This document shows positions 15,999 through 41,774 of a stretch of 46,490 nt of DNA, one piece after another (within the stretch, counting starts at the first letter, position 1; every line of letters starts with the position of its first letter). The notes beneath the pieces were generated by a model that made no database searches, was not told the DNA's origin, and was given only the letters and a program-made list of their open reading frames with translations. Where the stretch lies: the NCBI GenBank assembly GCA_016930635.1, contig JAFGGI010000060.1, positions 1 to 46,490 of the forward strand, given 5' to 3'. The DNA comes from Sedimentisphaerales bacterium (lineage in GTDB: Bacteria; Planctomycetota; Phycisphaerae; Sedimentisphaerales; UBA12454). Position numbers and translations under genes: made by a program.

Positions 15999-18900
15999 CT
16001 AATGTTCAATTGCCCCTAAATCAGGCCGTGATCCATTGTAACTGATACCTGAGTATGTAACTCCTGCATCAATAAACGAACTTCCGGATGCCAGATTCAG
16101 GAATCCGTTTGAAGTTGGATCGCTATTCGGCCCGGGATTTAATGTTACAAAATCAGAAGATGATGTGACATACTCCCAGTTGAAATCTGTATCATCAAGA
16201 GCATTACAGTTAGTCGGAGCATCTCCAACAATTCTGTCAGTATGGTTACCCTGGTATGTAACACAGTTTCTGAATGTATGTGATGCACCGTCTCTTACAT
16301 GATAATTATAATCACCGTTGTCATAAGCTGTCAGGTTGATAAACTTAATATTTCCGATGTTACCATTATCTGTAAATCCGTGTTTTCCGTTACTAAACGC
16401 AATACAGCGGTACAGTTCATGGTTGATTGTGTGTGCTGAAGAACCAAGTTTGAAACCATTTTTGTCGCCGCTTCCTGATGTTGAACCGTCTGTTAATGTA
16501 CCATTATTGTGCGCAATACAATTGTAAAACTTAACAACACCTATCGCACCGGTATCAGATTTTGTATATAAATCCCAACCGTCATCAATATTATGGTGAG
16601 CTACGCATCCTTCAAAAACATTTCCTGTACCACAAGTGAGTTTAGCTGCAAAACCATCTGCATCTTCTGTATCTGAATCTGCATTATTGTATGCTTCACA
16701 ATTCAGAATATAGTTGTTTGACGGCCATTCGCTGATTGAATCAGCATCTGTATTGTAGCGTGACAACTGCAGGCCAGAGTCTCTGTTTGCTGTGAAAATA
16801 CAGTTTTCGATAATATTATCGTTTCCGGAAAGGAGCATACCGTTATCACCGGCTTCACGAATAGTAATACCGTAAATATGCCAGTAGTTACCATCAAGAA
16901 CAAATCCGCGTGCAGAACTATCATCAGCACTGGCGTTCCAGTCAAGAACCGGGGTGCCGCTTGCTGCCCTGATAGATTTTCTGGAAGACGAAGTTCCTGA
17001 ATTATTTTCTGCAACCAAAATTGTTCCGGAAATATTATATGTTCCACTATTCAACCAGATGGTTCGTCCTGCAGATATTGAGTTAATTGCTGCCTGAATA
17101 TCATCACCTGGGCTTAGAGTAATATCTCCTGTTACTGGTGTAGGTGTAGGTGTAGGAGTACCTGTTGGCGTTGGAGTAGGTGTCGGTGAACCTGTCGGAG
17201 TAGGTGTAGGAGTAGGAGTAGGTCCGCCACTACCTGATAAGCTCATGTAGAAAAGATACGCTACATTGTCCTTACTTAATGTATGGTCGCCTGATCCAAG
17301 TTCTATAGTAAGTATTCCACCTGAGACACTTTGGCTTACTCCATCAACTCTAAAACCGCCGCTCCAGCCTTCGTTGAATACACATGTTAATGTTCCTGAT
17401 CCGTTGAAAGTAATTGAAGTACTGGATTCAATCTTCAAGCATTGTGTCAATGTCAATCCTGCATAGAATACAGTGCCGTATGAGGTAGAAAGGTTGCCGG
17501 ATATGTTAAAGAAAGAACTTGATAGACCATCTGTTGTAAAGTTGTGAACTATATCATCGCCTGGCGTTGGTGTCGGAGTTGGTGTTGACGTAGGAGTCGG
17601 AGTAGGTGTCGCTGTAGGTGTTGGAGTCGGTGTCGGTGTTGCAGTCGGTGTTGGTGTTGGTGTTGCCGAGCAGCTTGCAACCTGAATGTTAGGACCATCT
17701 ATCTGCATATAGTCGACATTAGGCAATCCCGCGCTGTTCGTAGCCTGAAGACGCATATCCTTTAATCCTGCGCTCAAATATACACTGGTTGATTCAGTAG
17801 TCCAGCTTGTCCAGCCGCCTGTACCTGCGAAGCTGAACGAACATGCTGTTGAACCGTTTACGATCAAGTTTGCCGAACGGGCACTTGAGCCGTTGGCATA
17901 TCTGACGGTAACGGTATACGTACCTGCTGTAACTACATTTGTCATATAGTCGATGCCGGTTCCGCTGGCATTGTCTGTATTTGCATAACCTGAACCTGTA
18001 TATCCGCTATGGTCAGATTGAACTGCACCATCTACATCACAGAATCCTGTCTGGTTTTCCTGTATGACAATACCACCGCCTGGCGTAGGGGTAGGTGTCG
18101 GCGTTGGCGTAGGAGTAGGTGTCGGCGTTGGCGTAGGAGTAGGTGTCGGCGTTGGCGTAGGAGTAGGAGTCGGCGTTGGCGTAGGAGTAGGAGTCGGCGT
18201 AGGTGTAGGCGTTGGTGTCGGGGTTGGCGTAGGTCCGCCACCTCCAGAGATAGTCCCGGCAGATGCTGTTAAAATGACCTTATCCAATATGCTGCCATCT
18301 TCTCTTCTACATACCCTCAAAGTGTGTGAACCTGATGATAAGCTGTTAAAAGTAGCTACAGAAAGTACTGAATATCCGCTTGTTTGCGTATTGTTTTGAG
18401 TACTCCATGAGCCTGAATCCATTTTGTAATGGAATGAGTCATTGGAGCCATTAGAGAAATTTACCTGAATCTGGAACTGTACATTTGCACTCTGCGACAG
18501 TGTAAACGATATCAGTACCTGACCATCTGCAGAATCTGATGGTGAGCTTAAAATATCGTTGCTGTTATCCGGCCATACTATTGCCTGTCCGCCGGATGCA
18601 GATCCATCACTGATTACCGTAAGCGGTGCAAACTGGCTCTGGCCTGAGAGACTTTCAAGCTCTACTTCCAGTGTGCTGCCGCCTGGCGTAGGTGTTGGTG
18701 TCGGAGTAGGAGTCGGCGTAGGTGTAGATGTCGGTGTCGGCGTTGGTGTTGCAGAACAGCTTGCTGCCTGAACATCAGGGCCGGTTATCTCTATGTAATC
18801 GACATTAGGCAGACCGCTGCTGTTTGTAGCTTCAATAGCTATATCACTTATCCCTGCCGACAAATATACACTGACTGATTCGGTATCCCAGGTTGTCCAT

Positions 18901-19220
18901 GTACCGGTGCCGGCAAAGCTGAATGCCTCTATTGTTAAACCGTTTACGATCAAATCTGCCGAACGAGAGCTTGAACCGTTGGCGAATCTGACTGTAACGG
19001 TATATGTACCCGCTGTTCCTACATTCGCCTTATAGTCAATACCATTTCCACTGGCATTGTCCGTATTTGCATAACCTGAACCTGTATAGCCTGAATGCTC
19101 AGATTCAATATCACCATCTACATTGCAGAAGCCGGTCTCATTTTCCTGTATGACAACGGCCAATGCAACGGATGGCATGAGAATAAGTACTATAAGAATT
19201 AGTTTCATTAACTTTAACAT
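15999..19220 (-). CDS. Secreted multi-modular PL9-type pectate lyase with carbohydrate-binding modules
   Basis: The 1073-residue protein has a signal peptide (residues 1-21). A CBM6/35-like module (about 22-155) is repeated nearly identically at about 384-511; different beta-sandwich modules lie at about 180-323 and 554-663; Thr-Pro linkers join them, the longest at about 328-382. Residues 700-1073 form a right-handed beta-helix. DADGFAAK (Asp855), DDGWD (Asp879, Asp880, Asp883) and NGFKLG (Lys924) match the spacing of the calcium-binding aspartates and the catalytic lysine of polysaccharide lyase family 9, so it probably cleaves polygalacturonate or a related uronan by beta-elimination outside the cell. 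AAAAGGAGG precedes the ATG. No dockerin or PEP-CTERM is present. Substrate within PL9 (pectate, rhamnogalacturonan) cannot be told by eye. Confidence 0.88.
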   Translation of the reverse strand: MLKLMKLILIVLILMPSVALAVVIQENETGFCNVDGDIESEHSGYTGSGYANTDNASGNGIDYKANVGTAGTYTVTVRFANGSSSRSADLIVNGLTIEAFSFAGTGTWTTWDTESVSVYLSAGISDIAIEATNSSGLPNVDYIEITGPDVQAASCSATPTPTPTSTPTPTPTPTPTPTPGGSTLEVELESLSGQSQFAPLTVISDGSASGGQAIVWPDNSNDILSSPSDSADGQVLISFTLSQSANVQFQIQVNFSNGSNDSFHYKMDSGSWSTQNNTQTSGYSVLSVATFNSLSSGSHTLRVCRREDGSILDKVILTASAGTISGGGGPTPTPTPTPTPTPTPTPTPTPTPTPTPTPTPTPTPTPTPTPTPTPTPTPTPGGGIVIQENQTGFCDVDGAVQSDHSGYTGSGYANTDNASGTGIDYMTNVVTAGTYTVTVRYANGSSARSANLIVNGSTACSFSFAGTGGWTSWTTESTSVYLSAGLKDMRLQATNSAGLPNVDYMQIDGPNIQVASCSATPTPTPTATPTPTPTPTATPTPTPTSTPTPTPTPGDDIVHNFTTDGLSSSFFNISGNLSTSYGTVFYAGLTLTQCLKIESSTSITFNGSGTLTCVFNEGWSGGFRVDGVSQSVSGGILTIELGSGDHTLSKDNVAYLFYMSLSGSGGPTPTPTPTPTGSPTPTPTPTGTPTPTPTPVTGDITLSPGDDIQAAINSISAGRTIWLNSGTYNISGTILVAENNSGTSSSRKSIRAASGTPVLDWNASADDSSARGFVLDGNYWHIYGITIREAGDNGMLLSGNDNIIENCIFTANRDSGLQLSRYNTDADSISEWPSNNYILNCEAYNNADSDTEDADGFAAKLTCGTGNVFEGCVAHHNIDDGWDLYTKSDTGAIGVVKFYNCIAHNNGTLTDGSTSGSGDKNGFKLGSSAHTINHELYRCIAFSNGKHGFTDNGNIGNIKFINLTAYDNGDYNYHVRDGASHTFRNCVTYQGNHTDRIVGDAPTNCNALDDTDFNWEYVTSSSDFVTLNPGPNSDPTSNGFLNLASGSSFIDAGVTYSGISYNGSRPDLGAIEH
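18082..18231 (-). repeat. 24-bp minisatellite encoding the longest Thr-Pro linker
   Basis: About six copies of a 24-bp unit (GGCGTAGGAGTAGG plus TGTCGGCGTT on the plus strand) lie head to tail, the central ones almost identical. Read on the minus strand they give TPTPTPTP. Such an array can expand or contract in 8-residue steps without shifting the frame. Shorter, more diverged arrays encode the other linkers (about 17140-17220, 17560-17665, 18684-18752). Confidence 0.8.
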
Positions 19221-22645: not shown

Positions 22646-23908
22646 ATGTCAATGACAATAACGGAAAAGATACTTGCCGCTGCGGCAGGTAAAAAGAAAG
22701 TTGAGCCCGGCGATGTAATCGACGCGAAGATCGACTGCATTATGTGTCACGATGTGACGACTCCGCCGGCAATTTCCATGCTCAGGGAAAAAGGTATCGA
22801 TAAGGTCTTCGATGCCGACAAGATCGTTGTCACGCCGGACCATTTCCAGCCGGCCAAAGATATTAAAAGCGCCGAGCTGCATAAAAGGCTCGATACCTGG
22901 GCAAGAGAAAAGAAAATAAAAAATTACTATCCGGTCGGTAAAGCAGGTGTCTGTCACGCGCTGCTGCCTGAGCAGGGTCATATCAGGCCGGGCGAAGTTA
23001 TCGTCGGCGGAGACAGCCATACCTGTACCTATGGAGCACTTGCGGCTTTTTCAACCGGTATCGGCTCAACCGATCTGGCTGCCGCTATAGCTACAGGAAA
23101 ACTGTGGTTCAAAGTTCCTGCATCGATAAAGTTCGTACTCAACGGCAAACTTTCAAAAGGTGTTTACAGCAAAGATGTGATCCTGGCCTGTATAGCAAAG
23201 ATCGGCACAGATGGTGCGCTCTATAAAGCGATGGAATTTGTCGGCCCGGCCCTGAAAGATATGTCGGCAGAAGCTCGGATGACCATTACGAATATGGCTA
23301 TCGAGGCAGGCGGCAAGAACGGCATTATCGGCTTCGATGACGTAACAAAAAAATATCTCGATGAGCACCTCAAGGATAAAAAAGAATATACCGTTTACGA
23401 ATCGGACCCGGATGCAGTCTATGAACAGACGATAGAAATTAACTGTTCCAGGCTTGAGCCGATAGTTGCCTTTCCGCATCTTCCAAGCTGCGGAAAACCT
23501 ATAAGCAAATGTGCCGGAGTTGCAATGGACCAGGCCTACATCGGAAGCTGCACCAACGGCAGAATGGAAGACCTGAGAATCGCCGCTCAGATACTCAAAG
23601 GCAAAAAAGTTGCGATAAGGACTATCATCGTGCCTGCCACTCCTGAAATCTGGAGACAGGCGATGGATGAAGGTCTGTTCGATATCTTTTACGATGCAGG
23701 CTGTGTAATTTCTGCGCCGACCTGCGGTGCGTGCCTTGGCGGGTTTATGGGAATCTTAGCTGAAGGCGAAAAATGCGTAAGTACAACAAACAGAAACTTT
23801 GTCGGCAGGATGGGACATCCGAAAAGTGAAGTCTATCTGGCCAGCCCTGCAACTGCAGCGGCAAGCGCAGTTGAAGGCAAGCTTGCCGACCCAAGAAAAT
23901 ATATTTAA
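22646..23908 (+). CDS. leuC: 3-isopropylmalate dehydratase large subunit
   Basis: The 420-residue aconitase-family protein isomerises 2- to 3-isopropylmalate together with LeuD. Cluster cysteines are visible in [13 protein letters not shown] and in [13 protein letters not shown] (Cys-x-x-Cys), and [23 protein letters not shown] is the substrate-binding block. The length is that of the archaeal/HACN-like short form. AGGG lies before the ATG, and the gene follows leuA by 12 nt. A 490-bp cassette with a four-helix-bundle gene separates it from leuD, an unusual break between two subunits of one enzyme. Confidence 0.95.
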
Positions 23909-23911
23909 TGG

Positions 23912-23922
23912 AAACTCTAAAT
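23912..23922 (+). repeat. Left inverted repeat of the four-helix cassette in the leu operon
   Basis: AAACTCTAAAT here is inverted as ATTTAGAGTTT at 24353-24363. Adjacent AATCCTAATATCTAAATCC on this side and AATTAGGATTTTGATATT on the other are also mutually inverted words, so the two flanks are extended, diverged inverted repeats. Confidence 0.65.
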
Positions 23923-23951
23923 CCTAATATCTAAATCCTAAATAAATACAA

Positions 23952-24317
23952 ATGACAAAAACTCAAAATCCAAAACAATATGACCTTGAAGACAGGACAC
24001 TGAAGTTTGCAAAACGGACGAGAGAATTTATCAGAAGAATCGATAGAACTCTGGCAAACATAGAAGATAGCAAACAGCTTATCAGGTCGTCAGGGTCTAT
24101 TGGTGCAAACTATATTGAGGCTAATGAAGCTTTGAGCAAAAAAGACTTTGCTATGCGTGTTAAAATATGTCGTAAGGAAGCTAAAGAAAGTAGATACTGG
24201 CTACAACTGGTGAATACAGACGGCAAAAACGACTTGGAGCAGGAAAAGCATGCTTTGCAGGAAGAAGCCCGTGAACTTACGCATATTTTTGGTTCCATCG
24301 TAACCAAAAGTACCTAG
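23952..24317 (+). CDS. Four helix bundle protein (23S rRNA-intervening-sequence family)
   Basis: The 121-residue protein matches PF05635/TIGR02436: FAKRTREFIRRI, SKQLIRSSGSIGANYIEANEALSKKDFAMRVKICRKEAKESRYWLQLV, then a last helix with EEARELTHIFGSIVTK. The LxRSxxSIGANYxEA block is diagnostic. Relatives are encoded in intervening sequences of 23S rRNA genes, and the fold resembles Avd of diversity-generating retroelements; no molecular role is established. No Shine-Dalgarno precedes the ATG, and the first codons are themselves built from the flanking repeat words. The gene with its inverted flanks is wedged between leuC and leuD on the operon strand. A related gene lies at 40546-40893. Confidence 0.85.
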   Translation: MTKTQNPKQYDLEDRTLKFAKRTREFIRRIDRTLANIEDSKQLIRSSGSIGANYIEANEALSKKDFAMRVKICRKEAKESRYWLQLVNTDGKNDLEQEKHALQEEARELTHIFGSIVTKST

Positions 24318-24352
24318 TAGTTTGGAGCATTTGTAATTAGGATTTTGATATT

Positions 24353-24363
24353 ATTTAGAGTTT
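24353..24363 (+). repeat. Right inverted repeat of the four-helix cassette in the leu operon
   Basis: ATTTAGAGTTT is the exact inverse of 23912-23922. It is followed by AGAAATTAGAAATTAGG and then the leuD ribosome binding site (AAGG near 24392), so the cassette ends about 15 nt before the leuD initiation signals. Confidence 0.65.
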
Positions 24364-24400
24364 AGAAATTAGAAATTAGGATTTTAACAACAAGGTAATA

Positions 24401-24883
24401 ATGATGTCTATAGCACATGTATACAAAAGAGACCATATAAATACGGACGAGATTATACCTGCAAGATATCTCAATACCGATGACATGGCAGAACTTGCCA
24501 CGCATTGTATGGAAGATCTGGATACTGAGTTCGTAAAGAAATGTCAGCCTGGCGATTGTATAGTTGCCGATGAGGATTTCGGCTGCGGCTCGAGCAGGGA
24601 ACACGCTGTCTGGGCGCTTCAGGGCGCTAAAGTCGGTGCCGTTATCGCTAAAACCTTTGCGAGGATATTCTATCGCAATTGTATCAATTGCGGGTTCTAT
24701 CCTATTGAACTTGACGGCGCAACGGATAAAATAAGCAACGGCGACGAAATCGAAGTCGATTACGAAAAGGGTGTAATTAATAACAAGACCCGGAATAAAG
24801 AGATAAAGTTTAAGCCGCTGCCTGATTTTGCTATTGAAATAATAAAAGATGGCGGATTACTCAACCATATAAAGAAAGGTTAA
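24401..24883 (+). CDS. leuD: 3-isopropylmalate dehydratase small subunit
   Basis: The 160-residue swivel-domain subunit partners Leu[14 protein letters not shown], the catalytic loop [30 protein letters not shown] and the [11 protein letters not shown] turn all match LeuD of the short type. It has its own AAGG ribosome binding site just after the inverted repeat of the inserted cassette. With leuC it forms a heterodimer, so any polarity caused by the cassette would unbalance the enzyme. The start is ATG at 24401 or the next codon. Confidence 0.94.
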
Positions 24884-24991
24884 CCACGAATGAACACAAA
24901 TATGCACAAGTTTAAAAAACTTTTTTAAACAGTGTTAGTCCGTGTCTAAAAAACAGTGTAAATCAGTGTTTATAATTGAAGAAAGGAACAG
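24884..24991 (+). repeat. Repeat-type spacer between leuD and leuB
   Basis: The spacer starts ACCACGAATGAACAC and contains AGTTTAAAAAACTT and GTGTTAGTCCGTGTC. Its vocabulary is that of the interspersed repeats around ridA (CACTAAGACACGAAAACAC and similar). No gene or terminator is visible; AAAGGAA near its end is the leuB ribosome binding site. Confidence 0.5.
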
Positions 24992-39118: not shown

Positions 39119-40507
39119 ATGAAACGAAGCAGTATATTAATCGTTGATGATGACAGGATAATACTTGACTCACTGTGCGAGTTCTTAAAGCTCGAAGGTT
39201 ACATTGCCCTCGGCGCCGAATCATATAAACAGGCAATCAGCTTAATACAAAAACAAAAATTTTCTCTCATTATCACAGATGTCAATCTGCCGGACGGCAA
39301 CGGCCTGGAACTGCTTAACCTTATCAGAACAAATCATCCGCAAACTGTAGTGGTCGTAATCACCGGCTACGGCACAATTGAAAGCGCGGTAGAAGCGATC
39401 AAAATAGGAGCATATGATTATCTTACTAAACCGATCGTTGACGATGAACTGAGACTGACTATCGAAAGAGCTTTAAAGCAACAATCGCTCATCAGCGAAA
39501 ATGAAACCCTCAAAAGCCAGCTCGAACGCAAGTACAGCCTCGAAAATATTATCAGCCAGGATTATAAAATGGCTCGGATCTTCGACCTCGTCGAAGCCGT
39601 TGCCGACAGCAAAAGCACAATTCTTATGACAGGAGCCAGCGGCACCGGAAAAACAATGCTCGCAAGAGCGATCCATTACCGCTCCGGCAGGAAAACCAAA
39701 CCTTTTGTCGAAGTAAGCTGCGGTGCTCTGCCCGAAACACTGCTTGAAAGCGAACTGTTCGGCCATGTAAAAGGCTCATTTACCGGTGCTATCAGCGACA
39801 AAGAAGGAAAATTCCTCGCTGCTGACGGCGGAACCATTTTTCTCGATGAGATTTCCAGCGCTTCGCCCGCTCTTCAGGTAAAACTTTTGAGAATAATCCA
39901 GGAAAGACAGTTCGAACCGGTCGGCAGCAATAAAACCATAACCGTTGACACCCGCGTAATCGTCGCTTCCAATAAAAACGTAGAACAGGAAGTAAAACTC
40001 GGAAACTTCAGAGAAGATTTATACTACCGCCTCAATGTAATAACTATAGACCTGCCCTCGCTCAACGAAAGACCGGCCGATATACCGCTGCTGGCTGACT
40101 ATTTTATGAAAAACTTCTGCATATCGCACAATCGAATAAAACAATCAATCACTGATAAGGCAATGACATCCCTGCAGAGATATAACTGGAAGGGCAATAT
40201 CCGCGAACTCGAAAATGTTATGGAAAGAGCAGTCCTTCTGAGCAAGACCGATTACATTACACTCGAAGACCTGCCCGTTAAAATAATTTCACACATGCCG
40301 CAGGATGGACCTGAGGAGTATAATAGAGCCAGCCTTAAAGATGCGATGAGTGAGCCGGAAAGAAGAATTATCCGCGCTGCCCTTGAAGCGAACAAATGGA
40401 ACAGACAGCTCACCGCAAAGGCCCTGGAGATCAACAGAACCACACTCTACAAAAAAATGAAAAAATACGGCCTTGAAGCAGAAGCCGAAAGACTCGGTAT
40501 AAGATAA
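39119..40507 (+). CDS. NtrC family sigma-54-dependent response regulator
   Basis: The 462-residue protein has a receiver domain (phospho-acceptor Asp in [21 protein letters not shown] later), a central AAA+ domain with Walker [11 protein letters not shown], the sigma-54 contact loop GSFTGA (variant of GAFTGA), GGTIFLDEI (Walker B) and an arginine-finger region, and a C-terminal Fis-type helix-turn-helix ([22 protein letters not shown]). Phosphorylated forms bind enhancers and activate RpoN polymerase. The adjacent -24/-12 element at 37635 is a natural target. AAGGAA lies upstream of the ATG at 39119. Confidence 0.93.
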
Positions 40508-40524
40508 AAGTGAAAAACTAAAAG

Positions 40525-40539
40525 TGAATAGTGAAGAGT
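40525..40539 (+). repeat. Left inverted repeat of the second four-helix cassette
   Basis: GAATAGTGAAGAGTT is inverted exactly as AACTCTTCACTATTC at 40959-40973. AAAAGTGAAAAACTAAAAGTG next to it is matched on the other side by related AAAGTGAA words. Confidence 0.75.
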
Positions 40540-40545
40540 TTGAAT

Positions 40546-40893
40546 TTACTTTTTGCTCGTTTTTACAGTCGATATCAACATAGCAATTATTTCTCCGCAG
40601 TCAGCTTGCATACTTTCAAACAATTTGATATTGATAAATTCTGTGTCCTTTAATAACAAAAGCCAATAATTGGCTTCATTTGCTTCTTTTAGAGCAATAC
40701 TCATTTTATGTGCAAAATCTGCCTTGCTCTGTCCGAATTCGGCTTCTCTAATCAAAGCACCAATTGCTGTGCCACTCCGCAAGAACTGTTTGCTTAAAAC
40801 AAATTCTTTTTTCTTGGCTTGTAAATGTTGAGACAACTTCACCACACGAATAGCGAACTTATAACTCTTCTCTTTTAATATGGACTCTTTCAT
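40546..40893 (-). CDS. Four helix bundle protein (23S rRNA-intervening-sequence family), second copy
   Basis: The 115-residue protein has FAIRVVKLSQHL, then SKQFLRSGTAIGALIREAEFGQSKADFAHKMSIALKEANEANYWLLLL, the helix II-III block of PF05635, and a final amphipathic helix. The usual LxRSxxSIGANYxEA reads LRSGTAIGALIREA here. It is clearly related to, but distinct from, the gene at 23952-24317. It stands alone between the 15-bp inverted repeats 40525-40539 and 40959-40973 and is convergent with the NtrC-like gene. No Shine-Dalgarno is visible. Function unknown. Confidence 0.85.
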   Translation of the reverse strand: MKESILKEKSYKFAIRVVKLSQHLQAKKKEFVLSKQFLRSGTAIGALIREAEFGQSKADFAHKMSIALKEANEANYWLLLLKDTEFINIKLFESMQADCGEIIAMLISTVKTSKK

Positions 40894-40958
40894 AACTAAA
40901 AATCAAATCCTTAATTTTTCACTTTTCACTATCTATCCCCGCCGCAAGGCGGCTCCTC

Positions 40959-40973
40959 AACTCTTCACTATTC
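40959..40973 (+). repeat. Right inverted repeat of the second four-helix cassette
   Basis: This is the exact inverse of 40525-40539. The small palindrome CCGCCGCAAGGCGGC (40938-40952) lies within the right flank. The cassette ends about 15 nt before the purQ stop codon. Confidence 0.75.
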
Positions 40974-40988
40974 GTTATTCACTTTTCA

Positions 40989-41774
40989 CTAAATAAAGTT
41001 TTCTTTCACATATTTGACAGCATTATTAAATATTGTCATACCATCTGCTCTTGACTTATCCTCTAATCTCGTCCAGTGCGGATGCTGAACAAATCTTACA
41101 AATCTTTCCGGATGCGGCATAAGACCTAACACACGACCGGTCGAATCACACAAACCCGCGATAGAATCCGTCGAACCATTCGGGTTTACAGGAAATGGGC
41201 CGAAGCTGCCATCCTCATCGACATATCTGAACGCAACCCGGTCATCTGTTTTGAGCCTCTCAAGTACGCCGTCGTTTTCAAATACAACTTTCCCTTCACC
41301 GTGAGCTATCGGCAGATATATTCTCTGGCCGGGCTCAATGAAAATACACTTTTTACTCGAAGGTTCCAGGTAAACCCACCTGTCCTCGAATTTTCCGCTG
41401 TCATTATAAGTGATCGTTATCTGCTGTTCATCGCTGCCGTTGAGTTTACCGAGGATGCCGGTCTTTACGAGAACCTGAAAACCGTTGCAGATACCTAAAA
41501 CTATTTTGCCTGCCTCTATAAACTCGTTCAGCCTGTCATAAAGATGATAAATGAGCTGGTTGGCAAGAATTTTCCCCGCCGCAACATCGTCGCCGTAGCT
41601 AAAGCCCCCGGGTATCACCATTATTTGGAACAAATCAAGCATAGCAGGATTTTCAATTATCCTGTTCACATGAACTCTCTGCGCCTCGGCGCCAGCAAGC
41701 TGGAGCGCATACTGCGTCTCTACATCACAATTTATCCCTGCCGCCCTTAATACTAACGCTCTTACCTGTTCCAT
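40989..41774 (-). CDS. purQ: Phosphoribosylformylglycinamidine synthase, glutaminase subunit
   Basis: The 261-residue class I glutamine amidotransferase releases ammonia for the FGAM synthase reaction of purine synthesis. The nucleophile is the Cys in IVLGICNGFQVLVK, the oxyanion region is GGFSYGDDVAAG, and the His/Glu pair lies in MPHPERFV near the C-terminus. Its length of about 260 is longer than B. subtilis PurQ (about 227), as in fused-type or archaeal forms. It begins 7 nt after the purL stop and forms a complex with that subunit. Confidence 0.94.
   Translation of the reverse strand: MEQVRALVLRAAGINCDVETQYALQLAGAEAQRVHVNRIIENPAMLDLFQIMVIPGGFSYGDDVAAGKILANQLIYHLYDRLNEFIEAGKIVLGICNGFQVLVKTGILGKLNGSDEQQITITYNDSGKFEDRWVYLEPSSKKCIFIEPGQRIYLPIAHGEGKVVFENDGVLERLKTDDRVAFRYVDEDGSFGPFPVNPNGSTDSIAGLCDSTGRVLGLMPHPERFVRFVQHPHWTRLEDKSRADGMTIFNNAVKYVKENFI

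Follow-up and report, generated by a model that had tools for sequence, protein, structure and literature searches.

An S23 gene between inverted arrays separates leuC from leuD

The window, that is, the whole stretch of 46,490 nt analysed here (Sedimentisphaerales bacterium, GCA_016930635.1, contig JAFGGI010000060.1, positions 1 to 46,490 of the forward strand), carries leuA, leuC, leuD, and leuB consecutively and in this order on the plus strand. The leuC stop lies at 23908 and the leuD start at 24401, and the space between them is occupied by a 121-aa S23 ORF and the repeated words that flank it:

22646..23908 (+), leuC, 3-isopropylmalate dehydratase large subunit, host gene and left neighbour (PRK00402 626 bits, TIGR02083 614 bits over cut-off)
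23912..23939 (+), left (upstream) array of four heptads, AAACTCT AAATCCT AATATCT AAATCCT, with X = T (four units are the mode in 106 copies; sequence information ends just outside)
23940..23974 (+), inner part of the left arm, AAATAAATACAAATG..., extending into the first S23 codons (AAAYAAATNCAAATG pattern conserved across copies)
23952..24317 (+), S23 / PF05635 four-helix-bundle gene, 121 aa, DRT-type subfamily (PF05635 and TIGR02436 profiles, AlphaFold2, dN/dS)
24303..24305 (+), codon of residue 118 (Thr), which co-varies with X (mutual information across copies, held-out G/T copies)
24318..24356 (+), inner part of the right arm (sequence; copies compared)
24357..24384 (-), right (downstream) array, inverted, four heptads on the minus strand, AAATCCT AATTTCT AATTTCT AAACTCT, with X = T
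24401..24883 (+), leuD, 3-isopropylmalate dehydratase small subunit, host gene and right neighbour (LEUD_arch TIGR02087, 190 bits over cut-off)

The predicted protein scores 47.2 bits against PF05635 (cut-off 33.8) and 69.3 bits against TIGR02436 (cut-off 24), confirming the PF05635 gene (ORF 23952-24317) that an earlier sequence-only reading of the stretch had placed between leuC and leuD. Its AlphaFold2 model (pLDDT 92.4) has the four-helix-bundle fold, with structural matches to the S23 proteins 2rld (Foldseek E 8.7e-5) and 2gsc (TM up to 0.75) and to Avd, a protein of diversity-generating retroelements (DGRs; 8ub7 and 4dwl), although identity to the Avd chains is only 12-13%. The last helix of the model spans residues 93-120, and positions 107, 110, 111, 114, 118, and 121 are spaced as residues on a single face of this helix would be. 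Intact orthologues at the leuC-leuD site evolve under purifying selection, with dN/dS about 0.1 (0.11 in the closest pair). The cassette itself contains no gene for a transposase, a recombinase, or a reverse transcriptase.

The inverted words AAACTCTAAAT (23912-23922) and ATTTAGAGTTT (24353-24363) match at 11 of 11 positions, and longer partial arms of up to 53 nt at 72% surround the gene. The right-hand limit first ascribed to these flanks, 24363, falls short of the end of the last heptad at 24384. Elsewhere in the window, the ORF list shows, on the minus strand at 15999-19220, an ORF of 1073 aa whose domains have very long Thr-Pro repeats between them.

Most copies carry four heptads per end and one constant letter

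Inverted repeats of the kind noted in that first reading are present around S23 genes well above chance: comparison of the upstream flank with the reverse-complemented downstream flank gives a score of at least 17 for 65% of 136 S23 genes of the order versus 10% of control genes, most of the top-scoring controls being S23 or GxxExxY genes left unexcluded. Among 134 S23 genes of the order, the own inverted downstream flank reaches a median score of 20 against 11 for the flanks of other copies, and it ranks best of 134 in 47 cases. The genome itself carries nine PF05635 genes, nearly all with repeated words in their flanks that differ from copy to copy. Most S23 copies have words of 7 nt, some have words of 8 nt, and copies whose proteins are over 50-60% identical have a common word type, even across arms and loci.

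In the subfamily of the leuC-leuD gene, the repeated unit is AA-NNN-C-X, i.e. CXAA followed by a free 3-nt spacer, and the heptads are found in one orientation. Four heptads are the mode in both arms (71/106 copies on the left, 81/106 on the right), and no chain of four units occurred in any of 6,520 shuffled arms. The same four-plus-four design is found in relatives from many bacterial phyla and one archaeon. Directly outside the arrays the information drops to about 0.1 bit, which gives the element sharp outer ends, so that the arrays delimit it as inverted ends delimit an insertion sequence or MITE. Within a copy, X is constant (purity 0.92), with similar agreement in the left (0.93) and right (0.96) arms, and 71 of the 76 copies with units in both arms have the same X on both sides (null mean 33, maximum 48 in 10,000 shuffles).

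Residue 118 of the protein predicts whether X is G or T

The letter X co-varies with residue 118, which lies in the C-terminal helix. Across 105 copies, X = G goes with R, K, H, N, Q, or I and X = T with E, T, S, V, G, or F, with zero overlap. The split was complete in the first 75 copies (X = G: 30 R, 5 H, 3 K, and one each of Q, N, and I; X = T: 18 E, 14 T, and one each of V and G), where residue 118 carried 0.994 of 0.994 bit of mutual information and the best column over 300 label shuffles only 0.38 bit. The peptide patterns used to scan for relatives (GANY[IR]EAN and E[AS]L[SG]KKDF) exclude this residue. A rule that assigns {R,H,K,Q,N} to G and {E,T,D,S,V,G,A} to T was fixed before new copies were fetched from Planctomycetota and from the phyla of a Moranbacteria and an Omnitrophota genome. 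It was correct in all 34 held-out copies that had X = G or T and a residue for which it predicts a letter; it failed on 13 further held-out copies, with X = C (10) or A (3), and was silent on four more because of their residue or a gap, while 39 copies with too few units and 12 mixed ones lay outside the test. In the pooled 106 G/T copies, residue 118 carries 0.998 bit. Among the 127 copies pooled, those with X = C (12) or A (9) form a separate class of 21 outside the rule, marked instead, as judged from few copies, by residues 110 and 114.

A tree from which the C-terminal helix was left out requires X to change about 22 times, with at least 7 of these changes forced by well-supported branches, so that the match between residue and letter does not reflect one shared ancestry. 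Arg118 is encoded by all six Arg codons. The GC content of the surroundings was considered as a cause of X and rejected (AUC 0.60). At the leuC-leuD site itself, the seven Thr118 copies have X = T and both intact Arg118 copies X = G.

These results bear on a purely mutational origin of the arrays, in which slippage and template switching would homogenise repeats near any hairpin without recognition of any kind. All S23 subfamilies have repetitive words that are specific to their locus, as would fit such a process, which nevertheless predicts homogeneity at all seven positions, whereas only CXAA is homogeneous and NNN is free; neither can it link X to a protein residue, and the held-out copies contradict it. 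We regard it as extremely improbable. A more serious alternative, which we still judge unlikely, is that the S23 protein binds the arrays only to control its own expression and that the cassette spreads passively by horizontal transfer. An operator of this kind would produce the same residue code, the left arm does cover the S23 start codon, and the gene is under purifying selection. Yet the array located after the stop codon keeps X just as well (0.96 vs 0.93), inverted and with an equal number of units, for which an operator at an upstream promoter has no need; moreover, since the S23 gene is flanked by leuC and leuD and has their orientation, its transcription from the leu promoter is likely.

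The arms do not behave as a selected RNA stem

S23 genes are known from intervening sequences (IVSs) of 23S rRNA genes, such as that of Coxiella, whose ends form a stem cut by RNase III (PMC4990558). The flanks at leuC-leuD had been compared with such processed stems, and a relocated IVS, with arms pairing in the mRNA and cut by RNase III, would account for the shared protein family. The window copy can indeed fold (z = -3.26; none of 100 shuffled sequences was as stable), but it does so because both arms carry the same letters, and the shared CXAA letters alone account for the complementarity. Changes of the G.U type are not commoner than those of the A.C type (199 vs 183 in 93 copies; 185 vs 196 in 74 copies), and the spacers of paired units are no more similar within a copy (0.471) than between copies (0.509). 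The absence of a G.U excess together with unpaired spacers leaves the RNA-stem reading without support: the ends do not appear to be held as a base-paired stem like those of a 23S rRNA IVS, even though the window copy can fold in this way. The site is also between leuC and leuD rather than inside a 23S rRNA gene, and we consider a relocated IVS very unlikely. A comparison of own with swapped arms by RNAduplex (mean -42.7 vs -30.0) looked favourable to pairing and was discarded, as it is explained by the shared letters. The assembly contains no 23S gene in which an IVS of this genome could be sought, and Rfam gave no match in the window.

Relatives occur in many phyla and the leuC-leuD junction varies

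A scan of genome contigs yielded 527 confirmed relatives. The best 80 of these 527 are 57-78% identical to the window protein, with one at 52%, and belong to Planctomycetota, Omnitrophota, Patescibacteria, Desulfobacterota, Chloroflexota, Nitrospirota, KSB1, and others, including one Methanophagales archaeon; nearly all of them have arms of the same make. No relative was confirmed by alignment in viral_contigs that would point to a viral vehicle; there was one partial phage match, and plasmid relatives occurred only under 60% identity.

Comparison of the leuC-leuD junction among relatives revealed empty, occupied, decayed, and alternative states. Five relatives (L011, L018, L022, L037, and L038) have empty junctions, with gaps of 4, 4, 9, 12, and 14 nt, and in others the junction contains a member of the same S23 subfamily, a GxxExxY gene, or arrays with no gene. 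The S23 subfamily occupies this place in about 11 of the relatives examined, in four families, where some copies are broken, frameshifted, or deleted; in one genome (G056, L211) the gene is lost and the arms are left, with mixed letters in the left arm. Its presence in several families rejects a recent unique insertion, and the gene cannot be regarded as peculiar to this genome. The occupied and empty sites compared for a target-site duplication belong to diverged species. The same subfamily also adjoins unrelated genes elsewhere. Other copies likewise have flanks that match. The sequence-only reading had considered that conservation of the gene at this place in all relatives, or flanks unlike those of other copies, would speak against a cassette. 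Neither was observed, and its proposal of a mobile-like cassette outside 23S rRNA genes and without a transposase of its own gains support from the relatives in distant phyla, the empty junctions, and the matching flanks of other copies. We give very little credence to the hypothesis that S23 has long resided in the leu operon and contributes to leucine synthesis. Its occurrence at this junction across four families and the purifying selection would agree with it. In most relatives, however, the junction lacks the gene, has a decayed or frameshifted copy, or carries another cassette instead, and elsewhere its subfamily stands beside unrelated genes.

The window S23 protein is 79% identical to copies of another family and 71% to a copy of the same family, whereas LeuD shows the reverse. 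When clean vertical descent was considered, the identities of the two proteins across the leuC-leuD loci showed no correlation (rho 0.04), and the S23 tree had poor resolution. Judging from these sequence identities, the mismatch suggests transfer but does not prove it, and ancient presence with losses may also account for it.

The window contains a second S23 cassette, with its gene at 40546-40893 (-) and arms at about 40507-40538 and 40905-40988 (AGTGAATAGTGAA / TTCACTATTCAC), between a response regulator gene (39119-40507) and a gene (40989-41774) that, from its sequence, resembles purQ. In another genome (G006, L065) this second cassette is inverted in place, with collinear neighbours. At two leuC-leuD loci (L020 in G005 and L217 in G008), the S23 gene is separated from the right arm by a further small ORF, which looks like cargo of the cassette. 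The inversion in G006 and the second gene within the arms in G005 fit a moving or recombining unit.

Inverted arrays also accompany other genes. GxxExxY genes of the order (PF13366, PDDEXK_3; L069-L098) are arranged in the same way, between inverted arrays whose words measure 9-10 nt and differ in type by protein subgroup (CACGAAGGA, CATGAAGCA, CACAGAGGC, CACAGATTT). A gene-less array of the GxxExxY type (CCACGAATGAACAC... / ...AGTCCGTGT...CAGTGTAAATCAGTGTTT) lies in the leuD-leuB gap of the window (24884-24991), and one relative (G004, L011) has a similar gene-less array at the same place. In another (L024, G036), gene-less inverted arrays of the CACGGATTT type lie on both sides of leuD.

A ring protein that may read the ends of its own cassette

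Comparison of the copies shows how the arrays are built, that they end sharply on the outside, that X is constant in both arms, and that it co-varies with residue 118. On this basis, we consider it probable that the unit is a mobile DNA cassette consisting of one S23 gene and an inverted four-heptad CXAA-NNN array at each end, and that its protein recognises these ends; that the protein binds them, that catalysis takes place, and that the cassette moves are all inferences. With an inverted array on either side, DNA would be the natural target. The S23 protein of Xanthomonas is cited as a pentameric toroid (in PMC4990558), and the window protein, which probably forms a pentameric ring as its solved relatives do, would bind both arrays in DNA with one subunit per heptad, residue 118 reading X and the 3-nt spacers remaining unread. 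Four read and three free letters per unit would fit a ring with one unit per subunit. Such binding would mark or pair the cassette ends and might in turn serve movement or maintenance of the cassette. Because the S23 protein has no known catalytic domain, cutting and joining would have to be borrowed, possibly from a host or neighbouring enzyme. The leu operon would simply tolerate the cassette as a passenger, which sits after the leuC stop codon and before the leuD ribosome binding site.

That one amino acid predicts one letter of a protein's own words in many phyla suggests that the protein reads its own cassette ends, and points to a simple repeat-reading code in a four-helix ring. A residue that predicts a flanking letter, confirmed on held-out copies, provides a specific binding hypothesis and a mutation expected to change binding. 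It would also explain the repeated-word flanks of hundreds of genes annotated as 'four helix bundle protein' and mark the ends of a widespread element in uncultured phyla. Somewhat doubtfully, we propose that S23 cassettes form their own class of mobile DNA, defined by a ring protein without a catalytic domain, a residue-to-base code, heptads at both ends with one subunit per heptad, and borrowed enzymes, with GxxExxY cassettes and their 9-10-nt units as a second class on the same principle.

Comparison with known systems

We know of no function assigned to S23/IVS proteins since their discovery in rRNA genes, and we found neither the inverted arrays nor the residue code described in the open-access literature. 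In the REP/RAYT system, a gene lies between inverted short repeats that its own protein recognises, RAYTs being Y1 HUH transposases. The S23 gene is likewise flanked by inverted short repeats for which recognition by its own protein is proposed, but S23 has no known catalytic domain and its flanks are heptad arrays, not REP hairpins; the protein encoded in the cassette is S23 rather than a Y1 HUH enzyme, and the only Y1_Tnp match in the genome is on another contig. Avd of DGRs (PDB 4dwl, 8ub7), a homologue of S23, has the same four-helix-bundle fold and resembles PF05635 (PMC10053308). Unlike in a DGR, there is no reverse transcriptase in the window genome (no RVT_1 match in the 96%-complete assembly), and, as given above, identity to Avd is low.

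The TAACTGA repeats of marine Beggiatoaceae resemble the S23 arrays in being intergenic heptads, repeated directly and interspersed with related 7-mers, for which binding by an unknown protein has been proposed (MacGregor 2015, PMC4679880). They differ in that most are described as one direct set ahead of a gene. That paper (PMC4679880) mentions neither 'S23' nor 'four helix', and a link of these repeats to S23 is offered as a suggestion only.

Another close system is the 23S rRNA IVS with an S23p ORF, as in Coxiella burnetii, which likewise measures a few hundred bases, has inverted ends, and contains a single ORF, for a homologous protein. In Coxiella, the S23p ORF lies behind tandem heptamers (GACAGAT), and it has been suggested that the protein is not made in vivo, the RNA being treated as the relevant part (PMC4990558). 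By contrast, the window cassette lies in a protein operon, has four inverted heptads at both ends, and bears no sign of selection for RNA pairing, whereas a residue of its protein co-varies with the heptads.
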